From positions 1-64,000 of the IMG/VR virus record IMGVR_UViG_3300002835_007523: a stretch of 64,000 nt of DNA; one strand, 5' to 3'. The translations under genes were made by a program, and so were the position numbers. A model generated the notes under the pieces. That model did not search any database, was not told where the DNA came from, and worked only from the letters and a program-made list of their open reading frames with translations. This DNA comes from a virus. Positions within the stretch are counted from its first letter, which is position 1. Each line of letters begins with the position of its first letter. Of this stretch, positions 782 to 33,593 are shown one piece after another.

Positions 782-1219
782 ATGATGGCATTTATGGGTC
801 AAACCCAAAATTCAATTCCCTTTACAGCCTGGCCATGGATGGTCGGCTTTGATCGTCAATTAGACACTATCGAAAAAATCCACTCTTCTGTAGGTCGAGG
901 CAGTGGCTATCCTCCATACAACATCATCAAGAACGACGAAGATAGCTATGTCGTCGAAATGGCGGTTGCGGGATTCACAAAGGATGAAATCTCTATTGAG
1001 GTCCAAGACTCTGTACTCACAGTCGAGGGTGAGAAGGCGGAAGCGACAGATCGAGATTACCTACACAAAGGGATCGGTACTCGTAGCTTCAGACAGACCT
1101 TTGTCCTAGCTGAGTACGTCGAGATCGCAAAAGCGGCCCTAACTGATGGTGTATTGACAATCTCTCTAATTCGTGAACTACCGGAGGCTAAAAAGCCTAA
1201 GACTATAGAGATCATCTGA
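782..1219 (+). CDS. Small heat-shock protein, Hsp20/alpha-crystallin family
   Basis: A 145-residue ATP-independent holdase of the IbpA/Hsp20 type, expected in the host cytoplasm, where it keeps unfolded proteins soluble. The alpha-crystallin domain spans roughly residues 44-138, with the family's A-G-F turn at 63-65 and the conserved DGVLTISL strand at 122-129. A C-terminal I-x-I motif (I142, I144), used for oligomer docking, is present. The ATG at 782 is chosen because AAAGGAG lies just upstream; a second ATG follows directly. Related genes occur in T4-like cyanophages, where they are thought to help virion protein folding. It is the first gene of the plus-strand run, next to a proteasome-like hydrolase. 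Confidence 0.93.
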   Translation: MMAFMGQTQNSIPFTAWPWMVGFDRQLDTIEKIHSSVGRGSGYPPYNIIKNDEDSYVVEMAVAGFTKDEISIEVQDSVLTVEGEKAEATDRDYLHKGIGTRSFRQTFVLAEYVEIAKAALTDGVLTISLIRELPEAKKPKTIEII

Positions 1220-1307: not shown

Positions 1308-1332
1308 CCTCACAGCTTAGAGAGGAGCTGTT

Positions 1333-1899
1333 ATGACAACACTTATCGCCATACAAGGCAAGGGTTGGTCTGTCATTGGATGTGATTCAAGAGCATCAGA
1401 TGAAAACGGCAGATTAACTGAAATGGCAACACATAAGATCGTAGAGAACAAAGGTGTACTTATTGCAGGCGCTGGTGCATCCCGCGGATCTAATATCCTG
1501 CAATTTGGTTGGACTCCACCTAAGCCACGTAGTAGTCAAGATCTAGATATCTTTATGACTAAAACTTTTATCCCAGCGATGCGTAAAGCATTCATTGAGT
1601 CTGGTTATGATATGAAAGAAGATGGCGATGCCGCAGCTCACGATTCTCATTTTATTATTTCAGTAAGGGGCGTTATCTATCCAATATACGGCGACTACTC
1701 ATGGGATAGAGAAGAACGAGGTATCTACTACGCAGGTAGCGGTGCAGACATTGCATTGGGAGCGTTAGAGGCGATGAACTATAAACGTGTCAAGACACCG
1801 GAGGCCGCCGAAAAAGTCCTCCGAAAGGCGATTGAAATTGCTATACGACACGACGTGTATTCTGGGGGAGAGATCCGCACACACATTCAAAAGTCTTAA
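1333..1899 (+). CDS. Proteasome beta/HslV-like Ntn hydrolase
   Basis: A 188-residue protein of the N-terminal-nucleophile proteasome family, predicted to be a threonine peptidase. Removing the initiator Met exposes Thr2 as the nucleophile, with no propeptide, as in HslV. Counting that Thr as 1, the family's other active-site residues are in place: Asp17 (in CDSRAS), a Lys at 34, a Ser at 135 in AGSGAD, and Asp173 with Ser176 in the D-V-Y-S-G-G motif, which is closer to 20S beta subunits than to HslV. The GSGADIALGALEA helix is also typical. RBS GAGAGGAG precedes the ATG. No partner ATPase (HslU, ARC/Mpa) is visible in the window. It could act alone, form its own ring, or join host subunits; none of these can be told from sequence. 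Confidence 0.9.
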   Translation: MTTLIAIQGKGWSVIGCDSRASDENGRLTEMATHKIVENKGVLIAGAGASRGSNILQFGWTPPKPRSSQDLDIFMTKTFIPAMRKAFIESGYDMKEDGDAAAHDSHFIISVRGVIYPIYGDYSWDREERGIYYAGSGADIALGALEAMNYKRVKTPEAAEKVLRKAIEIAIRHDVYSGGEIRTHIQKS

Positions 1900-6596: not shown

Positions 6597-7136
6597 ATGG
6601 CACGAGATAGCGGTTATCCACAAGTTACCGCCGGAAATATCGCCGTTGACTTCGTATGGGGAAACTTCCCTATGCAGCCAGACGATGATCGTACCGGAAA
6701 CGGAAGCGCTACTGTTGTAGTAGCAGCAAATGCTGCTCAAAACAACGACTGGAGCGGATACTCTGTATTTCAGAGCCCAGCTCTAACAAAAACAGATATC
6801 ACTGTAAACCTTAGTCCAGGATTAACCTCTGTTGTAGGAAACAACCACAGCGTTGCTCTAAACAACTGGAATGGTTATCCAGACTACACACCAGAAGCAC
6901 CTTATACAGACACAATTGATCAAGCAGCGGTTCCAAATGTTGTTGGATTAAGCGAGTCTGCAGCTAATACTGCACTTGTTGCAGCTGGCTTTGTTAAGGG
7001 CGCAGTTACAACAACTGCAGATGGTGCAACAGCACTAAACGACGGTCTTGTAAAGACACAGACTCCTGCAGCAGCATCAGTTAAGAATCTTGGTGATGCA
7101 GTAGCACTTGTCAAGTACGCTTACGTAGCTCCGTAA
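6597..7136 (+). CDS. PASTA-domain virion-type protein
   Basis: A 179-residue protein. The first about 110 residues form an Asn/Trp-rich beta-structured domain resembling phage decoration or fibre modules. The C-terminus (about 113-177) is a PASTA domain: VPNVVGLSESAANTALVAAGF, then a Q-T-P-A-A-A turn and a final VALVKY strand. In bacterial serine kinases and penicillin-binding proteins PASTA repeats bind cell-wall muropeptides. Here it could give virions weak affinity for an actinobacterial cell wall. RBS is GAATAGGAAAT. An intrinsic terminator follows. Confidence 0.82.
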   Translation: MARDSGYPQVTAGNIAVDFVWGNFPMQPDDDRTGNGSATVVVAANAAQNNDWSGYSVFQSPALTKTDITVNLSPGLTSVVGNNHSVALNNWNGYPDYTPEAPYTDTIDQAAVPNVVGLSESAANTALVAAGFVKGAVTTTADGATALNDGLVKTQTPAAASVKNLGDAVALVKYAYVAP

Positions 7137-7208: not shown

Positions 7209-9782
7209 ATGAAACCACTGCGCCCATTCGCAGCACTAATTGGAATATCTAATAGAATTACTTTTGCCCTAGGAGCGGGCTTTATATATCTGCTTCTTGT
7301 GATAACGCCTACCTATGCGGAAGAAACTACTCCTTCCACAGAGTCTTCGACCTCAAGTTCTCCAGCTCCATCTCCAAGTCCAGAACCTTCTGCTTCAACT
7401 TCGGACCCTCAATCCTCCAGTACGACATATTCTGCTGAGGCAAGTCCATCCCCGACGCCAAGTTCTTCATCAACTTCTGGTTCATCCGATCCAAGTCCAG
7501 CTCCTGCGCCTTCACCTTCGCCTTCGCCCACTTCAACTCCTCTTGCAACTTCTGAACCTTCTCCTGCTCCAAGCGAAAGTAGTTCTCCGTCCGCAGGACC
7601 CTCTCCATCGACTTCTCCGAGTACAACGATTTCATCGTCTCCAGAACCCGCACCTTCTGCTTCAGCGGAGCCGTCCCCCATATCCAGCCCAGAACAATCC
7701 CCGTCATCAAGCAGTACAGTACAAACGCCCATTGCCACCAGTGTTGAAACACCTACGGTTACCTCCGTTCAATCAAAAATAGAGACAGCAACTGTAACAT
7801 TAAACACAGCCATTGAAGCAGCAACTACAGAGCAAAAATCAGCGGCCGCAACTCCAGTTGTTGAAGCTCAGGTGGCGATTGTACAGGCAGAGTCTGCCAC
7901 AGCCGTAGCCGTTATAGCTCAAGCCGCTGTAGATTCTCAGACGGTTGTAGTAGCTACCGCAACAAACAATTTGACTGCTGCTCAAACGGCTTTAGATGCC
8001 CTTAAAGATGCTCCTGAAAATACAAAAGTTTATACAACAGACGGGTATGTAGCACCAGTAGCGCCAGAAACAGCGACAGTTACTACAACCACTCTTCCGA
8101 CTATGTACGATGCATCAACTAAAATTCAAACCCCGTTTGATATTAAGATGGGCGATATCCTGTATAACGGTCAGGGCCCAAACAGCCAGATTTACGTAAC
8201 ATCCAAGGCAACTATTACTTTTGGCACTGGAGACCACACTTGGTGGGATTTCCCTGGTGGACCAAGTATTTCGGTATTTGCCAGCGACTATATGAATGCT
8301 GGACCAGGAACTTCTACTGTAGTGACTACTACAGAAACAACTTTAGAGGTTGATTGGAATCTTAAAAAATTTGGTGATAACAACGCCCCTATAACTAATA
8401 TTAATTGGAAAATGACAGTAAACCCAACAACTGGTGAATGGACGGGTATTGGAACTGTTGCTGGAAACACCACTAATCTTTGGTATCCGCAACGCACTGG
8501 AGTTAGAGAAACTGCGGGTCAACCTGTTCAACAAATGACTGAAGTTACTAGTGCGACAATTGCAGCAGCAGAAACGGTAGTTGCAGACAAGGCTGAAGTA
8601 AAAACAGAGGCTGTTGCTACATTAACCACTCTTACTGAAACAGCTACAGCAACGGTTGCTACTGCAAATCAGTTGGCAAATGTTGCTGTTGAGAAGGTTG
8701 AGGTTGCAGTAGCTGCGCTTTCAGCACCTGTAGTTTCGCCAGAGCCTCAACAGCCGTCGACACCGCCAGTCGAACCGACTCCTGAACCTGCTCCTTCTCC
8801 AAATCCTCCTGCTCAAGAATCTTCTCAATCAACAGCTCCTCAGAACCCTGAGCCGTCCACTCCTCAACAACCTGTCGAGCCTTCGCAACCTCAGCAGCCC
8901 ACAGAGCCTCAAACTCCTTCGGATCCATCTACTACTCCTTCTGATCCTGCTGACAATAACAACTCTGACAATAACACGTCCCCGGAGGAAGAGACTCCTG
9001 ACGTTCCTCCAACTCCAGAAGACGGAGACGATACATCAACTCCTGAGTCTGAGGATCCTCAACCAACTCCCGAAGAGCCTTCTGAAAACGAATCCTCCGA
9101 CGAAAGCGATGAAACATCTACTGAGTCACCCACAGAAGAGTCATCGAACCCCACAGAAGAGCCAACAGAGCCGGAAGATACCGAGCAAACAGACGAAGAA
9201 ACTTCGGAGCCTTCGGACCCAACTGACGTAGTTGAGGAACCAGAATCACCACAGCAGTCACAAGAGACAGAGCAAGAAAATCAGTCCACAGAATCATCCC
9301 AGAATGATACACCAACCGAGGAAAAGGTTACCGCCCTCTTAGAGCAGGCTGGATCTGCCCCAGTTAGTACAGAAGCTATAAAAGAAGCTGGACTAACCTA
9401 TTCAGACCTTCCACCAGCAACTCCAGTTGAGGTTAGAACTGATGAAGATGGAAATGCTGTCATAATTACTGCAGAAGTTGCTGCAGCTTTAGTTCTTTTA
9501 GAAAATCCTGCAGAACTCCTTGGAGCAATATTCGAGAACCCAGCTCAAGCATTAACAGCGCTAGGAAACATAGGCGCAGATATGTCTGAAGAAGAACGAC
9601 AAGAAGCTGAAAAAATAGTTGTAGCAGCGGTGATTGCCGGACAAGCGGCAGTAAACGCCGCAACTATGGCCGCTGCAGCCACAACCTCATCAACTACTGG
9701 AGGGTCTAGTGGTGGGGGAGGACCTTCAGGTGGAAGTTCAAAGGGCGGAGATAAAATACTAAGGAGACGAGGAAAATGGTAA
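7209..9782 (+). CDS. Secreted Ser/Pro/Thr/Glu-rich surface-type protein
   Basis: 857 residues. The N-terminus has basic residues followed by a hydrophobic segment (about 16-34) ending in TYAEE, a likely signal peptide or anchor. Residues about 40-190 are a Ser/Pro linker; 195-270 are Ala/Thr/Val-rich helical; 275-430 look like a folded beta domain (TFGTGDHTWWDFPGG, WNLKKFGDNNAP); then helices, a Pro/Glu/Asp-rich acidic linker (about 510-700) and an Ala-rich end closing with Gly/Ser and KILRRRGKW. No clear ribosome site precedes the ATG, although a terminator does, so its mRNA may be separately started. It could be a host-surface or exclusion protein or a wall-spanning lysis factor; function unknown. 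Confidence 0.75.
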   Translation: MKPLRPFAALIGISNRITFALGAGFIYLLLVITPTYAEETTPSTESSTSSSPAPSPSPEPSASTSDPQSSSTTYSAEASPSPTPSSSSTSGSSDPSPAPAPSPSPSPTSTPLATSEPSPAPSESSSPSAGPSPSTSPSTTISSSPEPAPSASAEPSPISSPEQSPSSSSTVQTPIATSVETPTVTSVQSKIETATVTLNTAIEAATTEQKSAAATPVVEAQVAIVQAESATAVAVIAQAAVDSQTVVVATATNNLTAAQTALDALKDAPENTKVYTTDGYVAPVAPETATVTTTTLPTMYDASTKIQTPFDIKMGDILYNGQGPNSQIYVTSKATITFGTGDHTWWDFPGGPSISVFASDYMNAGPGTSTVVTTTETTLEVDWNLKKFGDNNAPITNINWKMTVNPTTGEWTGIGTVAGNTTNLWYPQRTGVRETAGQPVQQMTEVTSATIAAAETVVADKAEVKTEAVATLTTLTETATATVATANQLANVAVEKVEVAVAALSAPVVSPEPQQPSTPPVEPTPEPAPSPNPPAQESSQSTAPQNPEPSTPQQPVEPSQPQQPTEPQTPSDPSTTPSDPADNNNSDNNTSPEEETPDVPPTPEDGDDTSTPESEDPQPTPEEPSENESSDESDETSTESPTEESSNPTEEPTEPEDTEQTDEETSEPSDPTDVVEEPESPQQSQETEQENQSTESSQNDTPTEEKVTALLEQAGSAPVSTEAIKEAGLTYSDLPPATPVEVRTDEDGNAVIITAEVAAALVLLENPAELLGAIFENPAQALTALGNIGADMSEEERQEAEKIVVAAVIAGQAAVNAATMAAAATTSSTTGGSSGGGGPSGGSSKGGDKILRRRGKW

Positions 9783-10139: not shown

Positions 10140-10542
10140 AGAAAGACTAACACCACAAGAACTAGACGCTAGATTAAAGTTTATTCTAGGAATCACCTTA
10201 GGTTCTATTTTATTTTTTACAGCTATAGGAATTCTCTATGGCCTTTTGTTCGTTACTCAACCTATTGGGGCACAGTCAGAAAATGACAAGATGTTCTTCA
10301 ATGTTTTGGGTAGCGTAGCTACATTTATTACTGGAACTTTGGCTGGACTTCTTATTGGTCAGTCTGGTGCAAAAGACATTATGGCTGCACAACTAGCCAA
10401 TAAAGAGATGGACTCAAAGAATACTCTTGCTGATAAAAAGCTTGAGGCAGAAATTGACGACGCTAAGGCTCGCAGACTTGCAAAGCCAGACGGAGCAGTT
10501 CCCCCAGCACATCCAGTTGACGAAGATTGGGATAAAGACTAA
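10132..10542 (+). CDS. Membrane protein with two TM segments, holin-like
   Basis: 136 residues. Two strong hydrophobic segments (about 18-42 and 58-77, the latter GSVATFITGTLAGLLIG) are followed by a charged coiled tail of about 55 residues. This holin-like topology, together with overlap of the lipoprotein upstream and direct contact with the CHAP endolysin downstream (stop and start share a base), makes holin or lysis accessory the best guess. Confidence 0.72.
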   Translation: MAKERLTPQELDARLKFILGITLGSILFFTAIGILYGLLFVTQPIGAQSENDKMFFNVLGSVATFITGTLAGLLIGQSGAKDIMAAQLANKEMDSKNTLADKKLEAEIDDAKARRLAKPDGAVPPAHPVDEDWDKD

Positions 10543-11108
10543 TGGCGGAACAAGGAACAGCAGCTAAGCTTATTGAAGTTGCTACAGCAGAAGTAGGTAC
10601 AGTCGAAGGTCCAAAGGACAACGAGACTAAGTACGGTGCGTTTACTAAGGCTAACTTCTTGCCTTGGTGCGGAAGTTTTGTTATGTGGTGTGCCGATCAG
10701 GCTGGCGTAAAGGTACCAAATACTGTATCAACTCCAGCTGGCGCAGCAGCGTTTAAGAAGAAGAATGCTTGGATTGACGGTGATCTTGCAGATCCAGAGC
10801 CAGGTGATATTGCTTATTTTGATTTTCCATCAGATGGTGTAGATCGAATTTCCCATGTTGGAATTGTCATTAAGGACAATGAAGACGGCACTGTATGGTG
10901 CATAGAGGGAAATACCTCTGGAGACTCCAAAGGTAGCCAACGTAATGGAGGAGAGGTCTGCAAAAAACTACGTGCATATAAAAAGAATAAAAAGAATGTG
11001 CAAGTCTCTATCGTTGGATTTGGTCGACCAAAGTTTAAGGGTGCGGCTAAATCATCCGTCCCAGCATCACCTGCTGAGACATGCGACCGTTGTGGAAAAC
11101 TTTTGTAA
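10542..11108 (+). CDS. CHAP-domain endolysin
   Basis: 188 residues, predicted amidase or endopeptidase that cuts host peptidoglycan at the end of infection. The CHAP/NlpC-like core shows the nucleophile Cys43 in PWCGSFVMWC, His105 in ISHVGIV and an E/N pair in IEGNTS (122-126). There is no signal peptide, so export would need the holin-like neighbours. The C-terminus has a C-D-R-C-G motif (181-185), perhaps half of a zinc knuckle. A terminator follows. Confidence 0.9.
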   Translation: MAEQGTAAKLIEVATAEVGTVEGPKDNETKYGAFTKANFLPWCGSFVMWCADQAGVKVPNTVSTPAGAAAFKKKNAWIDGDLADPEPGDIAYFDFPSDGVDRISHVGIVIKDNEDGTVWCIEGNTSGDSKGSQRNGGEVCKKLRAYKKNKKNVQVSIVGFGRPKFKGAAKSSVPASPAETCDRCGKLL

Positions 11109-11165: not shown

Positions 11166-11729
11166 TTACTCCGAGAATCTACTAATCCAGAGTTCTATCC
11201 CAGGCTCTGATGGGTCTCCATCATAAGCGTGAGGGCCATAGCCCCAAGAACCCCAGTTAGTGCCCTTAGCCGTCATATAGAAGGCTATTTGAGCATTTAC
11301 TACTGGGTCAAATAATTGTTTCTTTGTATCGATTTGTATTCCGTTTTGTTGAAATTTATCTATCCTGTCCGAACCTAAAGTTCCAATCATGTTTATTTGA
11401 AATAGCCCATAAGAGTCATCTCCTGTAGACGGAGTATCATTATGGGAAGTAGGACGTCCTGTGGACTCCCTCATAGCTACGGCCCAAGCTATTTTTAACT
11501 TTTCCCCCTTAAAGCCAGTAAGCTTTAAAAGGTCGATTAATTCATCATTTGATAGCTTTTTAGCGTTTCTGTATTTTTCAATAGGGTCAACTTCTTCTAC
11601 CGCAACTGTTACGGTAGTTCCATCAGACGGTAAGATCTGATTTGACCAGGCCCATGCTACGTCTACACTCATTACAAATAAAAGTGCTAGCAATGAGGTT
11701 AATATCTTAACTTTTGCACTATACTTCAC
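11166..11729 (-). CDS. Secreted lysozyme/transglycosylase-like enzyme
   Basis: 187 residues, the only complete gene on the minus strand. A signal peptide (hydrophobic 9-27, ending A-W-A) directs export. The lysozyme-like core has the putative catalytic Glu88 in AWAVAMREST, then SYGLFQIN (106-113) and N-A-Q-I-A-F-Y, the pattern of SLT-type domains. The same domain type forms the C-terminus of the tape measure (43920-46901). Being exported and read separately, it might act on the wall from outside, for instance during release or against competing phage. It faces the plus-strand run on both sides. Confidence 0.85.
   Translation of the reverse strand: MKYSAKVKILTSLLALLFVMSVDVAWAWSNQILPSDGTTVTVAVEEVDPIEKYRNAKKLSNDELIDLLKLTGFKGEKLKIAWAVAMRESTGRPTSHNDTPSTGDDSYGLFQINMIGTLGSDRIDKFQQNGIQIDTKKQLFDPVVNAQIAFYMTAKGTNWGSWGYGPHAYDGDPSEPGIELWISRFSE

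Positions 11730-21401: not shown

Positions 21402-21405
<4 letters not shown>
20332..21405 (+). CDS. Neck/connector protein with BppU-like C-terminus
   Basis: 357 residues from GTG 20332. The N-terminal part ([11 protein letters not shown] ... [10 protein letters not shown] and a helical bundle) resembles head-tail adaptors that bind the portal. The last 110 residues ([25 protein letters not shown], and an end like [12 protein letters not shown]) match the pattern of BppU-like beta domains found in phage baseplate and neck proteins. The stop overlaps the first collagen-like gene's ATG by four bases, so it is read into the fibre block. Confidence 0.75.
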
Positions 21406-23567
<2,162 letters not shown>

Positions 23568-31493: not shown

Positions 31494-31859
31494 ATGCCTA
31501 TAGATTTTCCAGATACCCCCACGCTCAATCAACAGTTCACTGTTGGTGAGACTACTTGGTATTGGAATGGATCAGTTTGGCGCCTTTTAGTATCTGAAGG
31601 TGTGCAAGGAGATTTAGGACCTACAGGACCTATTGGACCAACAGGTCCTACCGGTCCCGGCATAACCGGTCCTACGGGCCCTACAGGGCCTGGAATAACC
31701 GGCCCAACAGGACCTACTGGACCAGTGTCTACAACTCCTGGACCTCTAGGGCCTACTGGACCTACTGGACCAGAAAACGACAACGTAGATGGTGGCGTTC
31801 CAAACTCGGTATACGGCGGCGGCATTACTCTCAACGGCGGAAATGTGCAAGGAGTTTAA
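31494..31859 (+). CDS. Short collagen-like fibre protein
   Basis: 121 residues. N-terminal module ([20 protein letters not shown]-type, ending N-G-S-V-W-R-L-L) common at the start of phage collagen-like proteins, about 18 Gly-X-Y triplets (GPT/GPG), and a short tail. Its stop touches the next start. Possibly a trimeric collar or linker with the following collagen-like fibre. Confidence 0.82.
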
Positions 31860-33593
31860 ATGGCAGTAAAGATTCAGTTTAGACGAGGCACTGCTTCTGA
31901 ATGGAACTTGGCAAACCCAATTCTTTCTCAAGGTGAAGCAGGATTTGAAACAGACACTGGACGTTTCAAAGTAGGTAACGGTTTAACTCCTTGGAACTCA
32001 TTAGTTTATTCCTCAGGTGTTACTGGACCAACAGGACCTACACCTACAGTTACAGTTGGTACAACTACAACTTTAAATCCTGGAGTAAACGCCTCGGTTG
32101 CAAATAGCGGAACAGCAACTGCCGCAGTTTTAAATTTTGGTATTCCTCAGGGAGCTACAGGCCCACAAGGAATACAAGGACCCACTGGTCCTACAGGTCC
32201 AACTGGAGCTCAAGGCATTACTGGTCCAACCGGTGCTGCATCACAAGTTACTGGACCAACAGGACCAACGGGCCCAACGGGTGCACAAGGAGTTACGGGC
32301 CCTACAGGCGCAGCTTCTCAAGTAACCGGACCTACAGGCCCAACCGGTGCCACAGGACCTCAAGGCGTCCCAATTACTCTTAAAGGATCTAAAGCAACTG
32401 TTGGTGATTTGCCGTCAACAGGTAACGCTTTAAATGACGCTTGGATCGTGGATGCTGACGGAGATGTCTACGTTTGGGATGGAACACAGTGGTATAGCGC
32501 AGGACAGATTGTTGGCGCAACCGGCCCAACTGGACCAGATGGCGCAGATGGCGCAGATGGCGCAGACGGTGCTCAAGGTCCTACCGGTCCACAGGGAGAT
32601 TTAGGCCCTACCGGTCCATCTGGAGTTATTTCAGTAACTGGTCCAGTAACAAATACTGGAACCCCTACAGCTGCAGTACTCGGTCTAGATCAATCGCTAC
32701 TATCTATATCTAACACACAAGTAACTGGTCTTGGAACCGCTTCCACAAAAAACATACCTGTTACAGGAAATGCTTCAAATACTGAGGTTGTATACGGAAC
32801 CGATACTCGCCTATCAGACACCCGCACCCCTACTGACGGCACCGTAACAACAGCAAAGATTGTTGATTCTAATGTTACTGAGGACAAATTAGCAACAAAT
32901 TCAGTTACTACTAGTAAGATTGTAGATCTAAACGTAACAACTGCCAAGTTAGCTGATCTTAATGTCACTACTGGTAAGATTGCTGATCTAAATGTCACCA
33001 CTGCAAAGCTTGCAGATGCAAGCGTTACTTTGGCAAAGCTTAACTCAAATGCCTTTACAAATCTTGCAGGAAACCTAAATCAAAGCCTATCTATAGTAGA
33101 TGTTGCCCCAAGATACGGAAACACTACGGGAACAATGTCTAGCGGAACTGTTTACTTCTCAATGTTTACCCCAATGTGGACAGCCACTATAAGCTCAATA
33201 AGTGTGGTTTCCGGAACAACTCAGGCAACTGGAGCAACGCTAGTACGTTTTGGTTTATATACGGTTGTAAATGACACAGCAACACTTGTAGCCCAAACAG
33301 CTTCAGATACAACAATCTTTAGTTCAACTAACACGCTGTATAACAGGGTGTTTAGTACAGTTGGCGGTCTTCCAGCAACCTATACGCTTCAAGCAGGAAC
33401 TCGATACGCTATTGGAATCATTATAGTAGCAACTACGCCTGGAAACGTGTACACAGCTTTTGGTCCAAACCCATCTGCAATCAGTACACTATCACCAAGA
33501 ATTACTGGAGCAGTGGCTCTGCAGTCAGACCTACCGGCATCAGTAGCATCGTTTGCATCAACTACCGTTGGACCTTGGGGAAGACTATCATGA
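31860..33593 (+). CDS. Collagen-like fibre with Mtd-type N-terminus
   Basis: 577 residues. Residues 1-55 ([20 protein letters not shown], then [17 protein letters not shown] and TPWNSL) match the N-terminal domain of the Bordetella phage Mtd/hyaluronidase-like fibre family. Collagen triplets follow, with one D-L-P ... Y-V-W-D-G module (near 32385-32510) also used in the 21402 protein, then repeated short helices of the [16 protein letters not shown] type and a C-terminal beta domain. A tail fibre subunit, perhaps the one that touches receptors. Confidence 0.87.

Follow-up and report, generated by a model that had tools for sequence, protein, structure and literature searches.

What role would a proteasome-like peptidase play for a virus of freshwater actinobacteria, and would it act on the virus's own particle, on the host's proteasome or on other proteins? 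The question is raised by the gene P0001, which lies in the window analysed here, a stretch of 64,000 nucleotides. The window comes from a viral record of 99,093 bases (IMGVR_UViG_3300002835_007523), which encodes an SPP1-type portal, a phrog_1357 major head protein and a contractile tail sheath and has two WhiB genes; these features, the WhiB genes among them, point to an actinobacterial host. The coordinates of the gene, its catalytic codons and its flanking elements are given in Table 1.

Table 1 Features of the peptidase locus, in window coordinates.
Feature	Position	Strand	Basis or conservation
Hsp20 small heat-shock protein gene	782..1219	+	PF00011 E 3e-21; phrog_432
Ribosome-binding-site-like stretch (AGGAG) ahead of the peptidase start	1319..1332	+	Sequence; AGAGAGGAG precedes the ATG
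Proteasome-like N-terminal-threonine peptidase gene (P0001)	1333..1899	+	ATG start, 188 aa; profile, conservation and fold evidence
Thr2 codon, predicted nucleophile once Met is removed	1336..1338	+	T or S in 181/181 relatives
Asp18 codon (mature Asp17)	1384..1386	+	Invariant, 181/181
Lys35 codon (mature 34; proteasome Lys33)	1435..1437	+	Invariant, 181/181
Ser136 codon in GSG (mature Ser135; proteasome Ser129)	1738..1740	+	S 147, T 24, N 8, C 3 of 182
D174-V-Y-S177-G-G motif (mature Asp173, Ser176)	1852..1869	+	D mostly kept, S/T interchange, GG variable

To establish the identity of the protein, profile searches were combined with structure prediction. Pfam PF00227 matches it over its cut-off (E 1.7e-8), and the PHROG family phrog_1040 ('peptidase HslV family'), which seems to pool several subclades, matches it over its full length (E 6e-26) and with no notable difference. 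In phmmer it aligned full-length to yeast beta5 with the catalytic residues lined up. The HslV model TIGR03692 scored 19.5 bits, below its cut-off of 157.75. An AlphaFold monomer model built from 47 viral sequences is confident (pLDDT 92.1, pTM 0.87) and predicts the alpha-beta-beta-alpha Ntn fold. Foldseek ranked BPH first (5ovs, 5ovt and 5ovu; E 1e-11, TM 0.75-0.76), followed by HslV and then 20S beta; 1184 PDB entries matched at E<=0.001, and the best 50 of these 1184 are all proteasome, HslV or BPH. By sequence, the family profile likewise matches HslV (3e-11) and BPH (~1e-11) best. Both helices H1 and H2 are present in the model (residues 50-58 and 71-89), and a helix at 156-173 is followed by the terminal strand 182-187, with no S12/H5. 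A compact subunit of this kind, lacking insertions and a propeptide, belongs with the group I proteasome homologs (HslV, BPH, AAH, CPH and PPH). Sequence profiles and predicted fold together confirm the protein as a member of the proteasome-like (Ntn, T1) superfamily.

The first-pass annotation had already proposed an Ntn threonine peptidase whose active-site set is complete, and conservation bears this out. The predicted catalytic residues align with T1, D17, K33, S129, D166 and S169 of the proteasome, and mature Gly47 (G48) takes the place of the oxyanion residue. The alignment that we scored holds 182 relatives from phages and plasmids; one of them is fragmentary near the N-terminus, and counts for those positions are out of 181. 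The protein starts MTT, with Thr2 and Thr3 directly after an invariant M1 (181-182 relatives); the nucleophile position holds T in 180 sequences and S in one, and the two glycines that flank S136 (G135 and G137) are invariant (182/182). The annotation had named two observations that would speak against it, a fold outside the Ntn family and loss of the Thr nucleophile in close relatives; what we found was a predicted Ntn fold and T or S in every sequence scored. Its proposal that removal of Met alone would mature the protein also agrees with a Thr directly after Met and no propeptide. The description of the last motif, D-x-x-S-G-G, as 20S-like did not survive: position S177 is T in 123 relatives and S in 50 (S or T in 173/182), and because the GG is variable and Thr predominates, the motif is no family feature; the closest folds, moreover, are BPH and HslV. 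Among close relatives the median dN/dS is 0.078 (405 pairs), which indicates strong purifying selection. P0001 thus encodes an intact, conserved protein under selection, with a predicted proteasome fold.

A phage-database search of the kind that the annotation had suggested found relatives in INPHARED phages of Klebsiella, Vibrio, Xanthomonas, Tenacibaculum, Moorella, Geobacillus, Arthrobacter and Microbacterium. This range of hosts bears on the idea, also put forward in the annotation, that the protein enters host 20S rings, where a decoy or replacement subunit in PrcA/PrcB rings would shift their specificity. The frequency of 20S proteasomes in actinobacterial hosts and the 20S-like catalytic set would fit such a role, but family profile and fold are nearer to HslV and BPH than to 20S. 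Of the 20S beta models only the archaeal one matched, at 31.5 bits and so far below its cut-off of 224; the profile matches at E<=1 include no bacterial PrcB model, and the propeptide and S12/H5 are missing. To our knowledge Klebsiella, Vibrio, Xanthomonas and Geobacillus have no 20S proteasome. Since relatives are found in phages of such hosts and S12/H5 is lacking, mixed rings with the host 20S are argued against, and we regard this reading as highly improbable. A non-proteolytic Ntn enzyme, for example a transpeptidase or ligase, is also very unlikely. The proteasome-like family does include a ligase, connectase (Fuchs, Alva and Lupas 2021, PMC8665760), and the residues would suit ligation as well as hydrolysis, but the model has no connectase-type long helical insertion between the early strands and its closest folds are peptidases.

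Proteasome homologs in phages are already known as a kind. Fuchs, Alva and Lupas (2021, PMC8665760) described phage-borne group I homologs (PPH, AAH and also CPH) that had neither a co-occurring AAA+ partner nor a suggestive gene context, and could find no Actinobacteria-specific phage carrying AAH; proteasome-like genes are also annotated in other phage papers (PMC8953757, PMC7289586). The window protein belongs to a group confined to actinophages. In a maximum-likelihood tree it joins the copies of two phage lineages (98/100), and Actinomycetia phage DSL-LC01 lies nearby. Another clade, here called MTC (100/98), holds proteins of ~180-190 aa from Sinorhizobium, Mesorhizobium and Streptomyces together with those of Firmicutes phages (Moorella, Geobacillus) and other phages, and the two clades stand together, apart from HslV, BPH and 20S (99/95). 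We take the MTC clade to be AAH-like, judged by the host range of AAH, as the tree contains no AAH reference sequence. Like AAH, the window protein is a compact group I homolog with Thr1, Asp17 and Lys33, found in phages and having no dedicated AAA+ partner; unlike it, the window clade is a separate and so far phage-only actinophage branch outside the AAH-like clade.

The other group I homologs are set apart more clearly. BPH, a bacterial protein, is the best fold match, but it shares only ~21% identity and sits apart in the tree on a long branch of its own. HslV (ClpQ) has the fold and the N-terminal Thr after Met in common with the window protein, whereas the C-terminal motif differs and no HslU-type gene was seen among the PF00004 matches of the 99-kb record. 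PPH is likewise phage-borne, but at ~140 aa and without helix H2 it contrasts with the 188-aa window protein with H1 and H2, which also branches apart from two short or divergent phage proteins taken as PPH-like. At E<=1e-5 the family profile had chromosomal matches in only 6/297 actinobacterial species; five of the matches are weak and cover the profile incompletely, while the single strong one is the centre of that search itself. Descent from a common host gene was rejected on these grounds. A scan of genome contigs using window-like patterns returned no bacterial relative.

In the ~100-kb phages like that of the window, the peptidase gene lies ~7-12 kb upstream of the terminase, and in the window it stands in the same-strand block. 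Two relatives of 94-96 kb lack the gene, so it is optional in this lineage. No AAA+ gene of the HslU, ClpX or ARC type was seen on the 99-kb record, where the two PF00004 matches belong to a DnaC-like loader and to a protein of the MoxR/AAA_5 type; from this we infer that the peptidase acts with no unfoldase supplied by the phage. The MoxR-like AAA_5 ATPase gene is followed by a VWA-domain gene, a chaperone-like pair beyond the window (L083:8808-12200, ~G000 88.8-92.2 kb). An Hsp20 gene lies 0.5-1.9 kb upstream of the peptidase in 18/23 loci of the window lineage (within 2.5 kb). We considered a functional pair and rejected it, because the two genes, adjacent in these 18 loci, are nonetheless found one without the other: G003 has only the peptidase and G034 only Hsp20, G004 and G026 have both far apart, and Hsp20 is missing from the ~40-kb phages G001, G005 and G008.

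Several further elements of the window were recorded. Between the Hsp20 and peptidase genes lies a long, near-perfect stem-loop (1258-1310, GGATCCTCCTCTG...CAGGGGAGGATCC; region z -2.6); a conserved RNA hairpin before the peptidase gene was rejected, as it is found in the window and unrecognisable in relatives. The gene of a PASTA-domain protein (6597-7136) precedes that of an 857-aa protein rich in Ser, Pro and Glu (7209-9782), which has a signal-like N-terminus and is possibly directed to the cell surface. A CHAP endolysin-like gene (10542-11108) adjoins a small minus-strand ORF (11166-11729), whose product starts with a signal-like segment and contains a stretch resembling transglycosylases; the late genes run on the other strand. 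Collagen-like G-P-T-G repeat proteins (21402-23567 and 31494-33593) precede the tail genes.

A second lineage, of ~40-kb actinophages, places the gene among head genes. The order in G001, G005, G006 and G008 is TerL, portal, peptidase, at least one small gene, an internal-type protein of 1.6-1.8 kaa, scaffold and MCP. In 52 loci the peptidase gene begins 13-18 nt behind the portal gene, where a prohead protease would usually be encoded. The same position directly behind the portal is seen in the record LanE43-AprE7, by its name the cultured Planktophila phage E7 (PMC10202952), and a second record with a peptidase match, of 38,889 bases, fits phage F5 of the same study. Position behind the portal could indicate a link to virion assembly. 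A virion or prohead protease, which would be the T1 counterpart of the usual serine prohead proteases and trim head, portal or internal proteins while the virion assembles, would account for this slot and for the window copy in a same-strand block upstream of the terminase.

The distribution of the gene nevertheless speaks against such a protease. Among the best 80 loci of a scan seeded with the portal, 75 had enough sequence for presence to be judged, and the following counts describe these samples: the peptidase is present in 52 and absent from 23 with the same gene order. Seven contigs that lack it, three of them 36.8-39.9 kb long, have no copy elsewhere, although as IMG/VR contigs they are possibly incomplete. 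The two window-lineage phages without the gene point the same way. Microbacterium phage LeeroyJenkins carries, in addition to the peptidase, a separate annotated capsid maturation protease. Directly behind the portal the gene is found only in the ~40-kb lineage; its position varies among cultured phages, often amid nucleotide-metabolism or small hypothetical genes, and in Arthrobacter phage Pitbull, in Pumpernickel, D'Alembert, XacN1, pT24 and the Moorella and Geobacillus phages it lies away from the head genes. A gene that is optional and exchanged argues against an essential prohead protease, and capsid maturation as the sole role was rejected because close relatives with the same head genes lack the gene. 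As far as we know, no protease is required by SPP1-type heads that have a scaffold of their own, and given the SPP1-type portal the missing protease beside the scaffold, which the annotation had treated as a reason to test for a maturation role, is not a gap. Its suggestion of virion-protein processing finds no support as an essential role; a non-essential role of this kind may hold, given the place next to the portal in one lineage. As a whole we consider a virion protease unlikely.

Exchange at the slot is extensive. Grouped by identity and N-terminal motif, at least four divergent peptidase alleles occupy one slot in phages with near-identical portals, and behind portals that share 96% identity the peptidases share only 36%, which we read as in-place allele exchange. 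Where the peptidase is missing, a gene of 75-78 aa (orf75, e.g. L285) fills the slot in 19/21 loci with 1.5 kb of room, and it is present in 0/42 peptidase-bearing loci. Between G005 and G008 the large internal-type protein is 24% identical, against 87% for the portal, 78% for the MCP and 74% for TerL, so the slot borders a hypervariable region. A tie between peptidase allele and type of internal protein was rejected: the groups separate, but are confounded with kinship. The peptidase gene is thus accessory and allele-swapped, its position being fixed behind the portal in one lineage.

These patterns would suit an early-acting or ejected effector, packaged or intracellular, that degrades a specific host defence or regulatory protein, with allele exchange reflecting an arms race. 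Divergent alleles behind near-identical portals, variation in presence, mutual exclusion with orf75 and the adjoining genes for large internal-type proteins all favour it. Ordinary recombination would produce the exchange equally well, however, and selection within an allele is strongly purifying; we judge this effector unlikely. Equally doubtful is a bolder proposal, in which actinophages recruited a T1 peptidase as an interchangeable part of their virion-assembly operon, either trimming internal virion proteins or packaged and injected as a host-directed protease, with the unrelated orf75 protein used in the slot by phages that lack it. We know of no example of a T1-family virion or injected protease.

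The best explanation as a whole, which we hold to be probable by a small measure, is an HslV/BPH-like, self-assembling accessory peptidase that has no phage unfoldase and is neither an obligatory maturase nor a 20S subunit. Methionine aminopeptidase would expose Thr2, which, judging from conservation, would serve as a single-residue nucleophile together with the Asp and Lys. Subunits would then form a ring or double ring resembling those of HslV and BPH; BPH itself is a double-ring peptidase that apparently acts without an unfoldase (Fuchs 2021, PMC8665760). Substrates would be unfolded or specific proteins, taken alone or with host chaperones. As an optional cassette, placed among late head genes in one lineage, the gene may aid infection of certain hosts or under certain conditions, and would do so most likely through removal of particular host or misfolded proteins. 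Peptidase activity, ring assembly, substrate and timing of expression are all inferred.

Proteasome homologs of phages have been known since at least 2021 without a function, and our literature searches found none for them. A cultured system could now reveal their role: in the Planktophila phages E7 and F5, whose host is LanE-43, a divergent copy directly follows the portal gene, and the presence, absence and allele swapping of the peptidase offer natural controls. The peptidase of the window lineage also fills a gap noted in 2021, when no actinophage with such a gene had been found (PMC8665760). For this freshwater actinobacterial virus, the peptidase represents a virus-only branch of the family, swappable and dispensable for building the particle.
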